From assembly GCF_001061665.1 (NCBI RefSeq), contig NZ_JVSP01000009.1:1-32366 (forward strand): a stretch of DNA of 32,366 nt, read 5' to 3'. This stretch comes from Rothia mucilaginosa (GTDB lineage Bacteria > Actinomycetota > Actinomycetes > Actinomycetales > Micrococcaceae). Of this stretch, positions 8,881 through 12,206 are shown one piece after another. The position numbers and the translations under genes were made by a program. The notes under the pieces are model-generated. The model had not been told where the DNA came from. It saw nothing but the letters and a program-made list of their open reading frames with translations, and made no database searches. Position 1 is the stretch's first letter; each line of letters begins with the position of its first letter.

Positions 8881-9921
8881 TCAGAGAAGCGCCTGAACCG
8901 CCATCATGACCGCCACACCGACAATAAAACACGCCGGAATGGTCACAATCCACACCAGCAGAATCTGAAGCACAATGCGGGGCTTCAACGCGTTGAAACG
9001 CTGGTTAACACCCGCACCCAGGGTCGATGCGGTCGCCAGGTGCGACGAAGAGAAGGGAACCTGCAGCAAAAAGTACCCAAGAATCTGCACGGCGGCGGTG
9101 GTTCCCTGCGCGACGGCGCCGCGGAGGGGATCGATGCGCACCATCTTGTACGCGAAGGTGTAGCCGATGCGCCGCCCGCCGCTGAGCGTTCCCAGGCCCA
9201 GGGTCAGGGCGATGAAGAGCGTGCCGAGGAGCATCCCTGCGGTGTCCAGACGGTACGTTCCGCCGGAGCCTGAATGGTCGCCGAGCAGGGGAACCATGAG
9301 CGACCACAGGAGCAGGTACAGATAGCCTGTCTGCACCCCGTGCAATAGCGAAATCGCGGAGGAGGACACCGCGAGCACCTCGCGGGAGTGCTGGTTGACC
9401 ATGCGCGGGTTGTGCCCCACCACGAGCCGGTAGAAGGGAATCACCATGACCCAGGAGAGAACAAAAATCAGCGGAGGCAGGTAGAGTAGCGGCCAGAGGG
9501 TCGCCTCGAAGATGTGCGGCAGAAACGAGCTGAGGTGCAGTTCCTGGCTGCCCTGCGTGCTGAATCGGGCCCACCAGCTGACCCCGGCCAGCGCGCCGAT
9601 GAGCGCGTGGGTCGAGGAAGAGGGCAGGCGGAGCGCCCAGGTCAGCATGCCCCAGATGGAGCAGACGAGCAACGCGGCGAGGATGCCGCTCAGGCCGGTC
9701 TCGCCCTCGGGGGCGCTCACCCAGGTGGCCGAGTATTCGCCCAACAGCAGGAAGGCGCTCACGACGCCGAGGACGTTGAAGAGCGCCGCCAGGTAGAGGG
9801 CCGAGCGCTCGCCGAGGGCGCGAGTGCGCACGGGCACGGCGACCGTGTTGGAGGCGTCGTGCATGCCGGTCACGTAGACGGCCGCGCCGAACGCGCAGAG
9901 GGCGAAGGGAATCAGGAGCAT
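8881..9921 (-). CDS. pit: Inorganic phosphate transporter, PiT family
   Basis: A 346-aa multi-helix membrane protein of the PiT (PHO-4) family, which moves phosphate or metal-phosphate into the cell with a cation. The N-terminal PiT signature reads G-M-H-D-A-S-N-T-V-A-V-P-V-R-T-R-A-L (the usual form is G-x-N-D-x-A-N-x-x-A). The mid signature S-S-S-T-H-A-L-I-G-A-L-A-G-V is well kept, and a second half-repeat appears near the C-terminus (S-S-S-H-L-A-T-A-S-T-L-G-A-G). Its ATG overlaps the stop of the DUF47 gene by one base, implying translational coupling. DUF47 with PiT is a standard low-affinity phosphate uptake pair. Confidence 0.93.
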   Translation of the reverse strand: MLLIPFALCAFGAAVYVTGMHDASNTVAVPVRTRALGERSALYLAALFNVLGVVSAFLLLGEYSATWVSAPEGETGLSGILAALLVCSIWGMLTWALRLPSSSTHALIGALAGVSWWARFSTQGSQELHLSSFLPHIFEATLWPLLYLPPLIFVLSWVMVIPFYRLVVGHNPRMVNQHSREVLAVSSSAISLLHGVQTGYLYLLLWSLMVPLLGDHSGSGGTYRLDTAGMLLGTLFIALTLGLGTLSGGRRIGYTFAYKMVRIDPLRGAVAQGTTAAVQILGYFLLQVPFSSSHLATASTLGAGVNQRFNALKPRIVLQILLVWIVTIPACFIVGVAVMMAVQALL

Positions 9922-10538
9922 TAGGACTCCTGCACGATGATGCGGCCAATCTCGGTGGAGACATCGCGCATCGCGTTGGAGGCGGCGGTCAGCTGGGCCA
10001 GGAAGGTCACGTAGCGGCGGTAGCGTTCGTGGGTGTAGCGGGTGGAGATGTGGGCTTCGTACTCTTCGGCGGTGCGCAGGGCCTGCCGCGAGATGCGGAG
10101 CATGTCCATCCAGTAGTTGTCGAGGCCGCGGATATCGGCGAGCTTGGGGATGACGGCCGCGGTGAGTACGGCCTGCCGCTGGATGATATCCAGGATTGAG
10201 GTGATGTGCGTGGCAAAGCCGTCAATGCTGTGCAGGGACAGCACGTGCGCGGCGCTCGTGAGCTTTTCAACAGCGGTGGTGAGCTTACGGGCCAGGGTGT
10301 AGATATCCTCGCGCGGAATCGGCGGGGAGAAGGAGCTACGCACCTCGGTGAGGGTGCGGTAGAGCAGGTCGGTGGAGTCGGCCTCGTGCGCGAGCATGCG
10401 CTCGAAGAGGGCGGGGTATTCGGCGACGGGGGAACCCACCATTTCGGAGAGGAGCGCCGCGGCCTCGCCGACCTGGGCCGAGATTTCGGCGAGGGAGGCG
10501 AGGGATTCGTTCGCGTGGGGGAAGAGGCGGTGCAGCAT
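9921..10538 (-). CDS. DUF47 / PhoU-like phosphate transport regulator
   Basis: A 205-aa all-helical protein of the DUF47 (PhoU_div) family, cytosolic, thought to control the partner PiT transporter. The pattern is of PhoU-like helices: H-E-A-D-S-T-D-L-L-Y-R-T-L, then P-P-I-P-R-E-D-I-Y-T-L-A-R-K-L, with the conserved acidic D/E residues of the metal site. It is the first gene of an operon with pit. The start codon is preceded at 7 bases by TAGACT (10546-10551) and no ribosome site, so translation probably starts on a leaderless mRNA. A separate structured RNA gene and its terminator lie about 330 bases upstream on the same strand. Confidence 0.92.
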   Translation of the reverse strand: MLHRLFPHANESLASLAEISAQVGEAAALLSEMVGSPVAEYPALFERMLAHEADSTDLLYRTLTEVRSSFSPPIPREDIYTLARKLTTAVEKLTSAAHVLSLHSIDGFATHITSILDIIQRQAVLTAAVIPKLADIRGLDNYWMDMLRISRQALRTAEEYEAHISTRYTHERYRRYVTFLAQLTAASNAMRDVSTEIGRIIVQES

Positions 10539-10813: not shown

Positions 10814-10861
10814 TACGGACCGGCCCAAACCAAGATGCAGACCATAAGGTACAGGCCGACA

Positions 10862-10899
10862 ATATAAAACGGTGGGGGTCGATTTCTCGACCCCCACCG
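10862..10899 (-). terminator. Intrinsic terminator of the candidate small RNA
   Basis: A 13-pair perfect stem (10870-10882 with 10887-10899) with a four-base loop (GAAA on the minus strand) is followed on the minus strand by TTTTATATT. The lack of a T run on the plus side shows it serves minus-strand transcription. Confidence 0.8.
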
Positions 10900-11001
10900 G
10901 AACGTTTAGGGATGTCGGGTTGGGAGCGCCTCTCGGCGGAAGGCCGCTCGAAGCGGCTAAAGATTTGGAGCCCGGGGCTACCTATTAGCAACCCGACATC
11001 T
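10862..11001 (-). ncRNA. Candidate stand-alone structured small RNA
   Basis: Read on the minus strand, the 5' end GATGTCGGGTTG (10989-11000) pairs perfectly with CAACCCGACATC (10911-10922), a 12-pair closing stem. Inside are three hairpins: AGCC/GGCT, GCCGCT/AGCGGC with a three-base loop, and CGCC/GGCG with a GAGA (GNRA) tetraloop. This forms a four-way junction. Eleven bases after the closing stem comes a 13-pair hairpin with a GAAA loop followed by TTTTATATT, a strong intrinsic terminator. A promoter (TTGACT, 18 bases, GATAAT) ends 8 bases before the closing stem. Promoter, structured body and terminator together give an RNA of about 140 bases. No known family was recognised; it is not tmRNA, SRP RNA, RNase P or 6C RNA by visible motifs. 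Confidence 0.65.
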
Positions 11002-11008
11002 TGTAATT

Positions 11009-11038
11009 ATTATCCACCCGCACCCGGCGCAGAGTCAA
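11009..11038 (-). promoter_or_regulatory. Promoter of the candidate small RNA
   Basis: Minus strand: TTGACT (11033-11038), an 18-base spacer, GATAAT (11009-11014). The expected transcript start is at about 11001, exactly where the closing stem of the RNA begins. Confidence 0.65.
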
Positions 11039-11267: not shown

Positions 11268-11999
11268 CTACGCGATTTCCTCCGGGTCTCGTCGAGAAGC
11301 CTCCGCGGCGCGCCACTGGGCGGCCACCGCCTCCAGGTCCTGCGCGTCCTGCTCGAGCTGCGCCGCCTGCCGCGGCATGCGCAGGTGACGCTCGACCGCC
11401 TCACGCTTAATCTCGTGGCTTGTCGCCACCGGAGTCACCGGCGCCGGATTACGCGAGTACCGCGCGAAATCCACGCGAATCCCCAGAGCCACAACGCGAG
11501 CGAAGGCCGCGCACCGCTCCATCGCCATATCCAGGTCCCCCGTGTACAGGCCGGCCAGGATCTCGTCAATCGTACGCACAACCTCCTCGGCGCCCGGCGG
11601 ATCCGGCACCCCCGCCACCACGTGCGAGCGGTAGTCCTCCGCCATGCCCAGCTCAAAGGCGCGGCTCACCCCGCGTGGGGAGCGGTGCACCGTGTCCCGC
11701 AGCCGATACATGCGCCAGAGCGCGCCCGGCAGGGAGTGCGCGCTCGCGTGCGACCATAGTTCGGCAAGCATTTCGATGCCGTAGTCGTCGGTGAAGCTGA
11801 CGAGCCGCTCGGTCAGCTCTCGATCCCGACCGCGCCCGCGCGTCAGCAGGATGCGGGCCGAGGCGTGAGCCGCCTCCTCACGGGCGGCGGGGTCCATGCC
11901 GCCCTCGTGCCGTTCGAACTTCTCGGAGGTAAAGAGGACGGGTCGGTGATGCGTGCGGCGGCGGGAGCGTCCGCCGGTGGAAGATGCGGATGTAGACAT
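11268..11999 (-). CDS. Conserved actinobacterial protein of unknown function
   Basis: A 243-aa soluble protein with a basic, disordered N-terminus (R-S-R-R-R-T-H-H-R) and an otherwise helical body. The segment L-P-G-A-L-W-R-M-Y-R-L-R looks like a conserved core, and the C-terminal 40 residues are a charged coiled coil. There are no membrane segments and no recognised catalytic motif. Relatives in Micrococcales have, to my recollection, sometimes been labelled 'RNA polymerase subunit beta' by database error; nothing here supports that name. TACACT lies 10 bases before the ATG. The gene is monocistronic, between the tRNA-Lys gene (divergent) and the small RNA region. Confidence 0.65.
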   Translation of the reverse strand: MSTSASSTGGRSRRRTHHRPVLFTSEKFERHEGGMDPAAREEAAHASARILLTRGRGRDRELTERLVSFTDDYGIEMLAELWSHASAHSLPGALWRMYRLRDTVHRSPRGVSRAFELGMAEDYRSHVVAGVPDPPGAEEVVRTIDEILAGLYTGDLDMAMERCAAFARVVALGIRVDFARYSRNPAPVTPVATSHEIKREAVERHLRMPRQAAQLEQDAQDLEAVAAQWRAAEASRRDPEEIA

Positions 12000-12133: not shown

Positions 12134-12206
12134 GCGCCTTTAGCTCAGTCGGTAGAGCTACGGACTTTTAATCCGCAGGTCGTGGGTTCGAGCCCCACAG
12201 GGCGCA
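12134..12206 (+). tRNA. tRNA-Lys (anticodon TTT)
   Basis: The cloverleaf is complete: acceptor GCGCCTT pairs with AGGGCGC (one G-U), D-arm TAGCTCAGTCGGTAGAGC, anticodon loop CTTTTAA (anticodon TTT), and T-arm GTGGGTTCGAGCCCCAC. The discriminator is A and CCA is not encoded. It has its own terminator just downstream. Confidence 0.97.

Follow-up and report, generated by a model that had tools for sequence, protein, structure and literature searches.

A predicted small RNA gene of Rothia mucilaginosa belongs to a structured RNA family found in much of the class Actinomycetes

We analyzed a stretch of 32,366 nucleotides from Rothia mucilaginosa (contig NZ_JVSP01000009.1; hereafter, the window), in which an initial annotation had proposed a small RNA gene on the minus strand. 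At the upstream end of this gene, a promoter scan identified a -35 element, TTGACT (11033..11038, minus strand), separated by an 18-base spacer from a -10 element, GATAAT (11009..11014, minus strand). This promoter (11038..11009), located where the annotation had placed it, matches the consensus at 10 of 12 positions and is the best of three promoter-like sites found in 801 bases, compared with a mean of 0.3 in shuffled sequences. From the spacing, transcription is predicted to start at about 11001-11003.

The minimum-energy fold of the window copy (-72.6 kcal/mol, z = -6.62, with none of 200 shuffled sequences equally stable) consists of a 12-pair closing stem, three inner hairpins, one of them with a GAGA tetraloop, and a 13-pair terminator hairpin with a GAAA loop, all of which had been proposed for this site. 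The closing stem, P1, pairs a 5' arm, GATGTCGGGTTG (10989..11000, minus strand), with a 3' arm, CAACCCGACATC (10911..10922, minus strand). It encloses a conserved strand, CCCCGGGCUCCA (10966..10977, minus strand), and two hairpins seen in both the fold and the alignments, P3, GCCGCUUCGAGCGGC (10943..10957, minus strand), and P4, CGCC-GAGA-GGCG (10927..10938, minus strand). The intrinsic terminator (13-pair stem, GAAA loop and TTTTATATT; 10861..10899, minus strand), which was recovered by the fold and by a terminator scan, places the predicted 3' end at about 10862, and the predicted ends of the window copy delimit an RNA of about 140 nt. Within 801 bases this is the sole terminator-like site, which is close to the chance expectation of 0.8, and therefore its weight rests on the relatives.

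Upstream of the RNA gene, the window encodes a 243-aa predicted all-helical protein, denoted UP (11268..11999, minus strand), with no match in Pfam or NCBIfam. Downstream, and outside the RNA gene, lie a DUF47-like gene (9921..10538, minus strand) and a Pit-type phosphate transporter gene (8881..9921, minus strand; PF01384, E 2.3e-44). The assignment of the former is based on the similarity of its product to a DUF47-annotated Arthrobacter plasmid protein; the product has no Pfam match of its own.

A DNA search detected homologues of the RNA in all 59 genomes from genus to order level, the source genome included, and in distant genomes the matches cover about 10922-10982. We built a covariance model (R1) from 42 sequences and searched the class with a cut-off of E 0.001, obtaining matches in 233 of 394 genomes and 77 of 137 genera. 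Separate searches at order level matched 73 of 121 genomes in the order of genome G308 and 49 of 60 in the order of G397. The remaining 161 of the 394 class genomes gave no R1 match at E 0.001 with search filters that lose weak matches; the RNA is therefore not needed everywhere. A wider model, R2, matched 31 of 396 genomes of the phylum at E 1e-4, every one within the class of Rothia. The 13 negatives listed belong to other classes, as do 345 further negatives judging by list order, so this search doubles as a specificity control. A pattern scan of named genomes found at least 119 stretches with the RNA. Among the matches listed are Arthrobacter, Rothia, Kocuria, Microbacterium, Cellulomonas, Bifidobacterium, Actinomyces, Nocardioides, Tessaracoccus, Geodermatophilus, Modestobacter, Jiangella, Gordonia and Williamsia. 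Matches were also obtained on plasmids from Arthrobacter, Gordonia and Rhodococcus, some of them at E near 0.2.

The weaker plasmid matches fall in up to three places per record. Tandem copies of the RNA occur in three distant loci (L222, L248 and L253), with starts 100-182 bases apart. Because it contains UP, the RNA and a Pit-like gene, record MT835541, which was deposited as a phage, looks like a fragment of a bacterial chromosome. The terms Streptomyces-like and Mycobacteriales-like are used here for lineage readings inferred from gene content.

We compared the homologues in two alignments. The first (A1), made with MAFFT alone, included 63 of 64 loci (all except L058), that is, 52 distinct sequences reduced to 42 at an identity cut of 96%. 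The wider one (A3) has 103 rows, 102 of them distinct, and was built with 100 of 294 loci hand-picked for diversity and fitted to model R1, so that it leans towards the model. In the 42 sequences, compensatory changes are present at all 12 pairs of P1, as expected of the proposed closing stem, and 88 compensatory cells were counted vs 21.6 in shuffled alignments and 4-13 in slid-partner controls, which count the whole structure. In the 103-row alignment, the count was 327 vs 40-70 in slid controls. The inner hairpins change far less: in the 103 rows, three pairs of P3 are invariant and one changes on both sides, C-G becoming U-A, in 16 sequences; in P4, three pairs are invariant and one varies from C-G to U-G. 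An extra outer pair that the model draws in P4 is unpaired in 35 of 102 sequences and absent from the window copy. Thus, the sequence of P1 varies freely, whereas P3, P4 and the CCCCGGG strand hardly vary. CCCCGGG is invariant in 42 of 42 sequences of A1; across the 103 rows, the CCCCGGGCUCCA strand shows no change at CCCC, at the second and third G or at the final A; the first G is retained in 96 rows and the C next to that A in 102.

The initial annotation had described the RNA body as a four-way junction, which holds for the predicted fold of the window copy but not for the family. The consensus fold of the 103 rows is a three-way junction of P1, P3 and P4, in which the first inner hairpin, P2, is open: a 4-bp P2 is possible in just 33 of the 103 rows, its two inner pairs being invariant. 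The 42-sequence consensus draws a P2 of 3 pairs, two of them invariant. Because P2 is not conserved, CCCCGGGYYCCA is better viewed as a conserved strand that, according to the consensus model, is probably unpaired in the family.

We then compared the regions upstream of 260 distinct copies, found by the core pattern in 294 loci and having at least 130 bases upstream; copies without the core pattern or with a shorter upstream region are outside these counts. Single-base shuffling served as the motif control; since the copies are related to one another, their counts cannot be read as independent events. In every one of the 35 genus copies, TTGAC lies 57-62 nt ahead of the core; 0.27 would be expected for the 34 distinct upstream regions. 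A different motif, GGAAY-N18-GTT, was found in 61 of the 260 distinct upstream regions vs 0.3 in base-shuffled copies. The spacer length peaks at 18, with 8 copies at 17, 16 at 19 and none at 20-22; 17 copies have a match with a spacer of 14-15, and all 17 also contain one with 17-19. Overall, GGAAY-N17-19-GTT is present in 85 of the 260 distinct copies and absent from 175, and the exact GGAAT-N18-GTT form is present in 45. The window copy and all 33 distinct genus copies lack GGAAY-N17-19-GTT. The motif was found in 23 of 28 copies from the Streptomyces-like order, 13 of 20 from the order search around G308, 12 of 17 other distant copies, 27 of 109 named stretches, 6 of 27 other relatives, 2 of 23 class-search copies, both plasmid copies (Gordonia and Rhodococcus) and not in the single viral contig. 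In 40 of the 44 motif-bearing A3 rows, the GTT ends 6-14 nt before P1 (34-36 nt in the other four), and the RNA would therefore begin at or near P1 in most of them. In some families (loci L043, L048, L054, L223 and L224), GGAAY-GTT lies about 25 nt further upstream, from which a longer 5' leader would follow.

GGAATN18GTT is reported as the motif of SigR in Streptomyces coelicolor, and its Mycobacterium tuberculosis orthologue, SigH, has a close one (PMC2375139). A SigH_actino sigma factor scored above the curated cut-off in 21 of 23 genomes tested, including that of the window itself. By motif alone, a SigR/SigH-type promoter cannot be told from those of other ECF factors. Judging from the upstream sequences, control by a stress sigma factor is likely in the lineages with GGAAY, and SigR/SigH, which responds to disulfide and heat stress, would drive the RNA in Streptomyces-like, Mycobacteriales-like and several other lineages. 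In the genus of the window, transcription would instead depend on the housekeeping sigma factor; in both cases the RNA would have a promoter of its own.

At the other end of the gene, strict terminators were detected in 52 of 259 copies (one copy was dropped because of a short flank) vs 9.0 in shuffled copies, and in 16 of the 35 genus copies. Within the genus, unrelated hairpin sequences occupy the same place, with the hairpin and the T-run kept; thus, the terminator hairpin of the window, although its sequence changes, is retained in relatives. The covariation, the fixed promoter position in the genus, these terminator hairpins with unrelated sequences and the differing neighbours all agree with the original proposal of an independent RNA gene. 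That the site is non-coding is likewise suggested by the gaps in alignment A1, which include ones of 1, 3, 4 and 5 bases among others and do not fit a conserved reading frame. We conclude that this locus is almost certainly an independent small RNA gene.

The surroundings of the RNA differ between lineages. The DUF47-Pit operon follows it in Micrococcaceae and some other groups, not generally, and many other loci have no DUF47 or Pit relative on the flank examined. Two Streptomyces-like genomes have a HelD/HelR-type helicase gene on one side of the RNA and a malic enzyme gene on the other; HelD/HelR models, the Bacillus-type one excepted, match the helicase at E 1e-92 or better, all below their curated cut-offs. 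In the Mycobacteriales-like locus L220, the RNA is beside a carboxyl transferase gene (PF01039). HU-type and EPSP-synthase-family genes are located further out in the Streptomyces-like locus L216. In this same locus, a zinc-finger gene (zf-HC2, anti-sigma-like) lies beyond the gene for the HelD/HelR-type RNA polymerase helicase.

Rfam 15 yielded no match at the RNA at gathering thresholds, three tRNAs being the only matches in the window. These tRNA genes are at 12134, 25622 and 28506. Up to E 10, matches at the RNA were at chance level, with no 6S among them, and in six distant loci, a search up to E 1 gave nothing at the RNA besides a chance microRNA match at a terminator. The claim of novelty thus stands with respect to Rfam, but the Streptomyces member is probably a small RNA already detected and left uncharacterized, scr2952; novelty is judged here against Rfam 15 and the open-licence literature alone. 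The expression of scr2952 is reported as confirmed, with conservation in over half of the Streptomyces tested and inclusion in Rfam (PMC8388888), although Rfam gave no scr2952 match on three Streptomyces-like loci. The name places this sRNA next to SCO2952, which is listed as HelD (PMC10719064), and SCO2951 is described as malic enzyme (PMC7244524); in Streptomyces-like genomes, the RNA studied here likewise lies between HelD/HelR-type and malic enzyme genes, so the S. coelicolor copy would be scr2952. The sRNAs scr3559 and scr0792 take their numbers from the higher-numbered of the two genes bounding their intervals (PMC9130861, PMC11077062). By position and naming, the Streptomyces member is therefore probably S. 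coelicolor scr2952. The passages on scr2952 in PMC8388888 draw no connection with other genera or with SigR.

The promoter, the covarying P1-P3-P4 fold, the terminator, the distribution in the class and the SigR/SigH-type motif in many lineages are all computational observations. We interpret the Rothia RNA as a member of a family of structured RNAs of Actinomycetes that act in trans, are often controlled by stress and have a fixed core met by a conserved partner (probability roughly 0.6). In this interpretation, the RNA would act as a structural RNA, with P1 serving as a sequence-free clamp that presents the fixed core, that is, the CCCCGGG...CA strand, P3 and P4. The core would be recognized by a single conserved partner, for which a protein or complex found throughout the class is the likeliest candidate, and binding would change the activity of this partner under stress. 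Recognition by a partner is suggested because the stem sequences of P3 and P4 hardly vary while P1 varies freely; such fixity would be expected if the core is specifically recognized, but not in an RNA that base-pairs solely through a seed. On these sequence patterns, we lean slightly towards a conserved partner, and not mainly mRNA, as what binds the core.

A serious competitor, which we nonetheless regard as less likely, is a regulatory RNA that base-pairs through the unpaired C-rich strand CCCCGGGYYCCA with G-rich ribosome-binding sites in several mRNAs. Such binding has been proposed for other C-rich RNAs from high-GC bacteria, and the strand in question is unpaired in the consensus and near invariant in an RNA that has its own promoter and terminator, like trans-acting sRNAs. 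Moreover, the 12-base complement, TGGAGCCCGGGG, occurs 8, 5 and 6 times in three GC-rich genomes vs 1, 1 and 2 times for the reversed control, the RNA gene itself being counted where it fits; the excess sites (L302-L321) are possible targets or reflect mere composition. However, the C strand is no more fixed than the stem sequences of P3 and P4, whose constancy pairing with mRNA does not require, and among perfect matches in two Rothia genomes, the 12-base complement was present outside the RNA gene once in one and not at all in the other.

An improbable alternative is that the RNA and UP form a two-part unit, either a ribonucleoprotein or a regulator and its target. UP is the most frequent of the three window neighbours tested: of the 119 named stretches listed, 87 carry it no more than 1 kb from the RNA (same strand in 71, opposite strand in 16), and 30 of the 119 have less than 1.2 kb on one side. 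Furthermore, UP was found in 114 of the 394 class genomes, and 112 of these also have the RNA (G063 and G392 do not). Against such a unit, 121 of the 233 RNA-bearing class genomes, including Streptomyces-like and Mycobacteriales-like ones, have no UP match at E 1e-6, and the linkage is explicable by shared ancestry alone. The predicted helical fold of UP, for which we assembled a set (A2) of the window protein and 49 of 83 UP proteins, also has no clear match suggestive of RNA binding.

It is very unlikely that the RNA is a divergent form of Ms1 or 6S RNA sequestering RNA polymerase. The RNA is structured and widespread in Actinomycetes, as this explanation would have it, and in Streptomyces-like genomes it adjoins a gene of HelD/HelR type, a group with members that act on RNA polymerase. 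On the other hand, Rfam gave no 6S match up to E 10, and Ms1 is reported at the sco3558-sco3559 locus, linked to a HAD hydrolase gene and about 230 nt long in S. coelicolor, with no intergenic region able to hold it found in Bifidobacterium and Actinomyces (PMC9130861), where the RNA described here does occur. The RNA polymerase section of an S. coelicolor RIP-seq study names scr3559 and scr0792 alone (PMC11077062) and not an scr2952-type RNA, which, if scr2952 is the RNA described here, speaks against RNA polymerase as the partner. The least credible explanation is that the RNA serves the DUF47-Pit phosphate operon as a cis-acting leader, either a riboswitch or an attenuator. It is suggested by Micrococcaceae (for example Arthrobacter, Sinomonas, Kocuria and the majority of Rothia loci) in which the operon lies downstream of the RNA in the same orientation, but we dismiss it because a terminator separates the two in the window, malic enzyme is the next gene in the Streptomyces-like loci and no DUF47 or Pit relative was found on the flank examined in many other loci. 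Across loci, we found no fixed tie to one downstream gene class; the RNA is kept with different neighbouring genes and therefore is no riboswitch, a role that the initial annotation had also considered less likely.

Returning to the trans-acting family with a fixed core, a bolder form of this interpretation, which we put forward tentatively, is that of a class-wide disulfide- and heat-stress RNA, driven by SigR/SigH, whose invariant core binds a conserved machine, making it an actinobacterial counterpart of 6S in the thiol-stress regulon. The machine might be, for example, the ribosome, or RNA polymerase in a state missed by RIP-seq of unstressed cells. The same tentative reading would include carriage of the RNA by Gordonia and Rhodococcus plasmids. 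Conservation well beyond a single genus is known for few actinobacterial sRNAs, with Ms1 and 6C as examples from the literature. If the proposal is correct, a further family spanning much of the class, with an invariant core and a recognizable stress-sigma promoter, would add to the SigR/SigH response an RNA component open to immediate testing in Streptomyces, and scr2952 would be explained as a member of this family.

Among known RNAs, Ms1 (MTS2823, scr3559) resembles the RNA described here in being a structured actinobacterial sRNA shared by many genera, but it occupies another locus, is larger and adopts a 6S-like fold, compared with a three-way fold of about 140 nt. The neighbours noted here (UP, DUF47-Pit, and HelD with malic enzyme) do not include the HAD hydrolase linked to Ms1, and the fold is not the 200-300 nt 6S-like one that characterizes it; in addition, going by the account in PMC9130861, Ms1 was not found in the Bifidobacterium and Actinomyces groups in which this RNA is present. 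The 6C RNA is likewise an actinobacterial sRNA with exposed runs of C, described as lying in two stem-loops (PMC4046766), whereas the C strand of the present RNA is in the junction, and no Rfam match to 6C was obtained at the RNA. Two adjacent hairpins are shared with the ANTAR-target RNAs. The latter carry two six-base loops; the hairpins of the RNA described here, by contrast, have loops of 3 and 4 bases.
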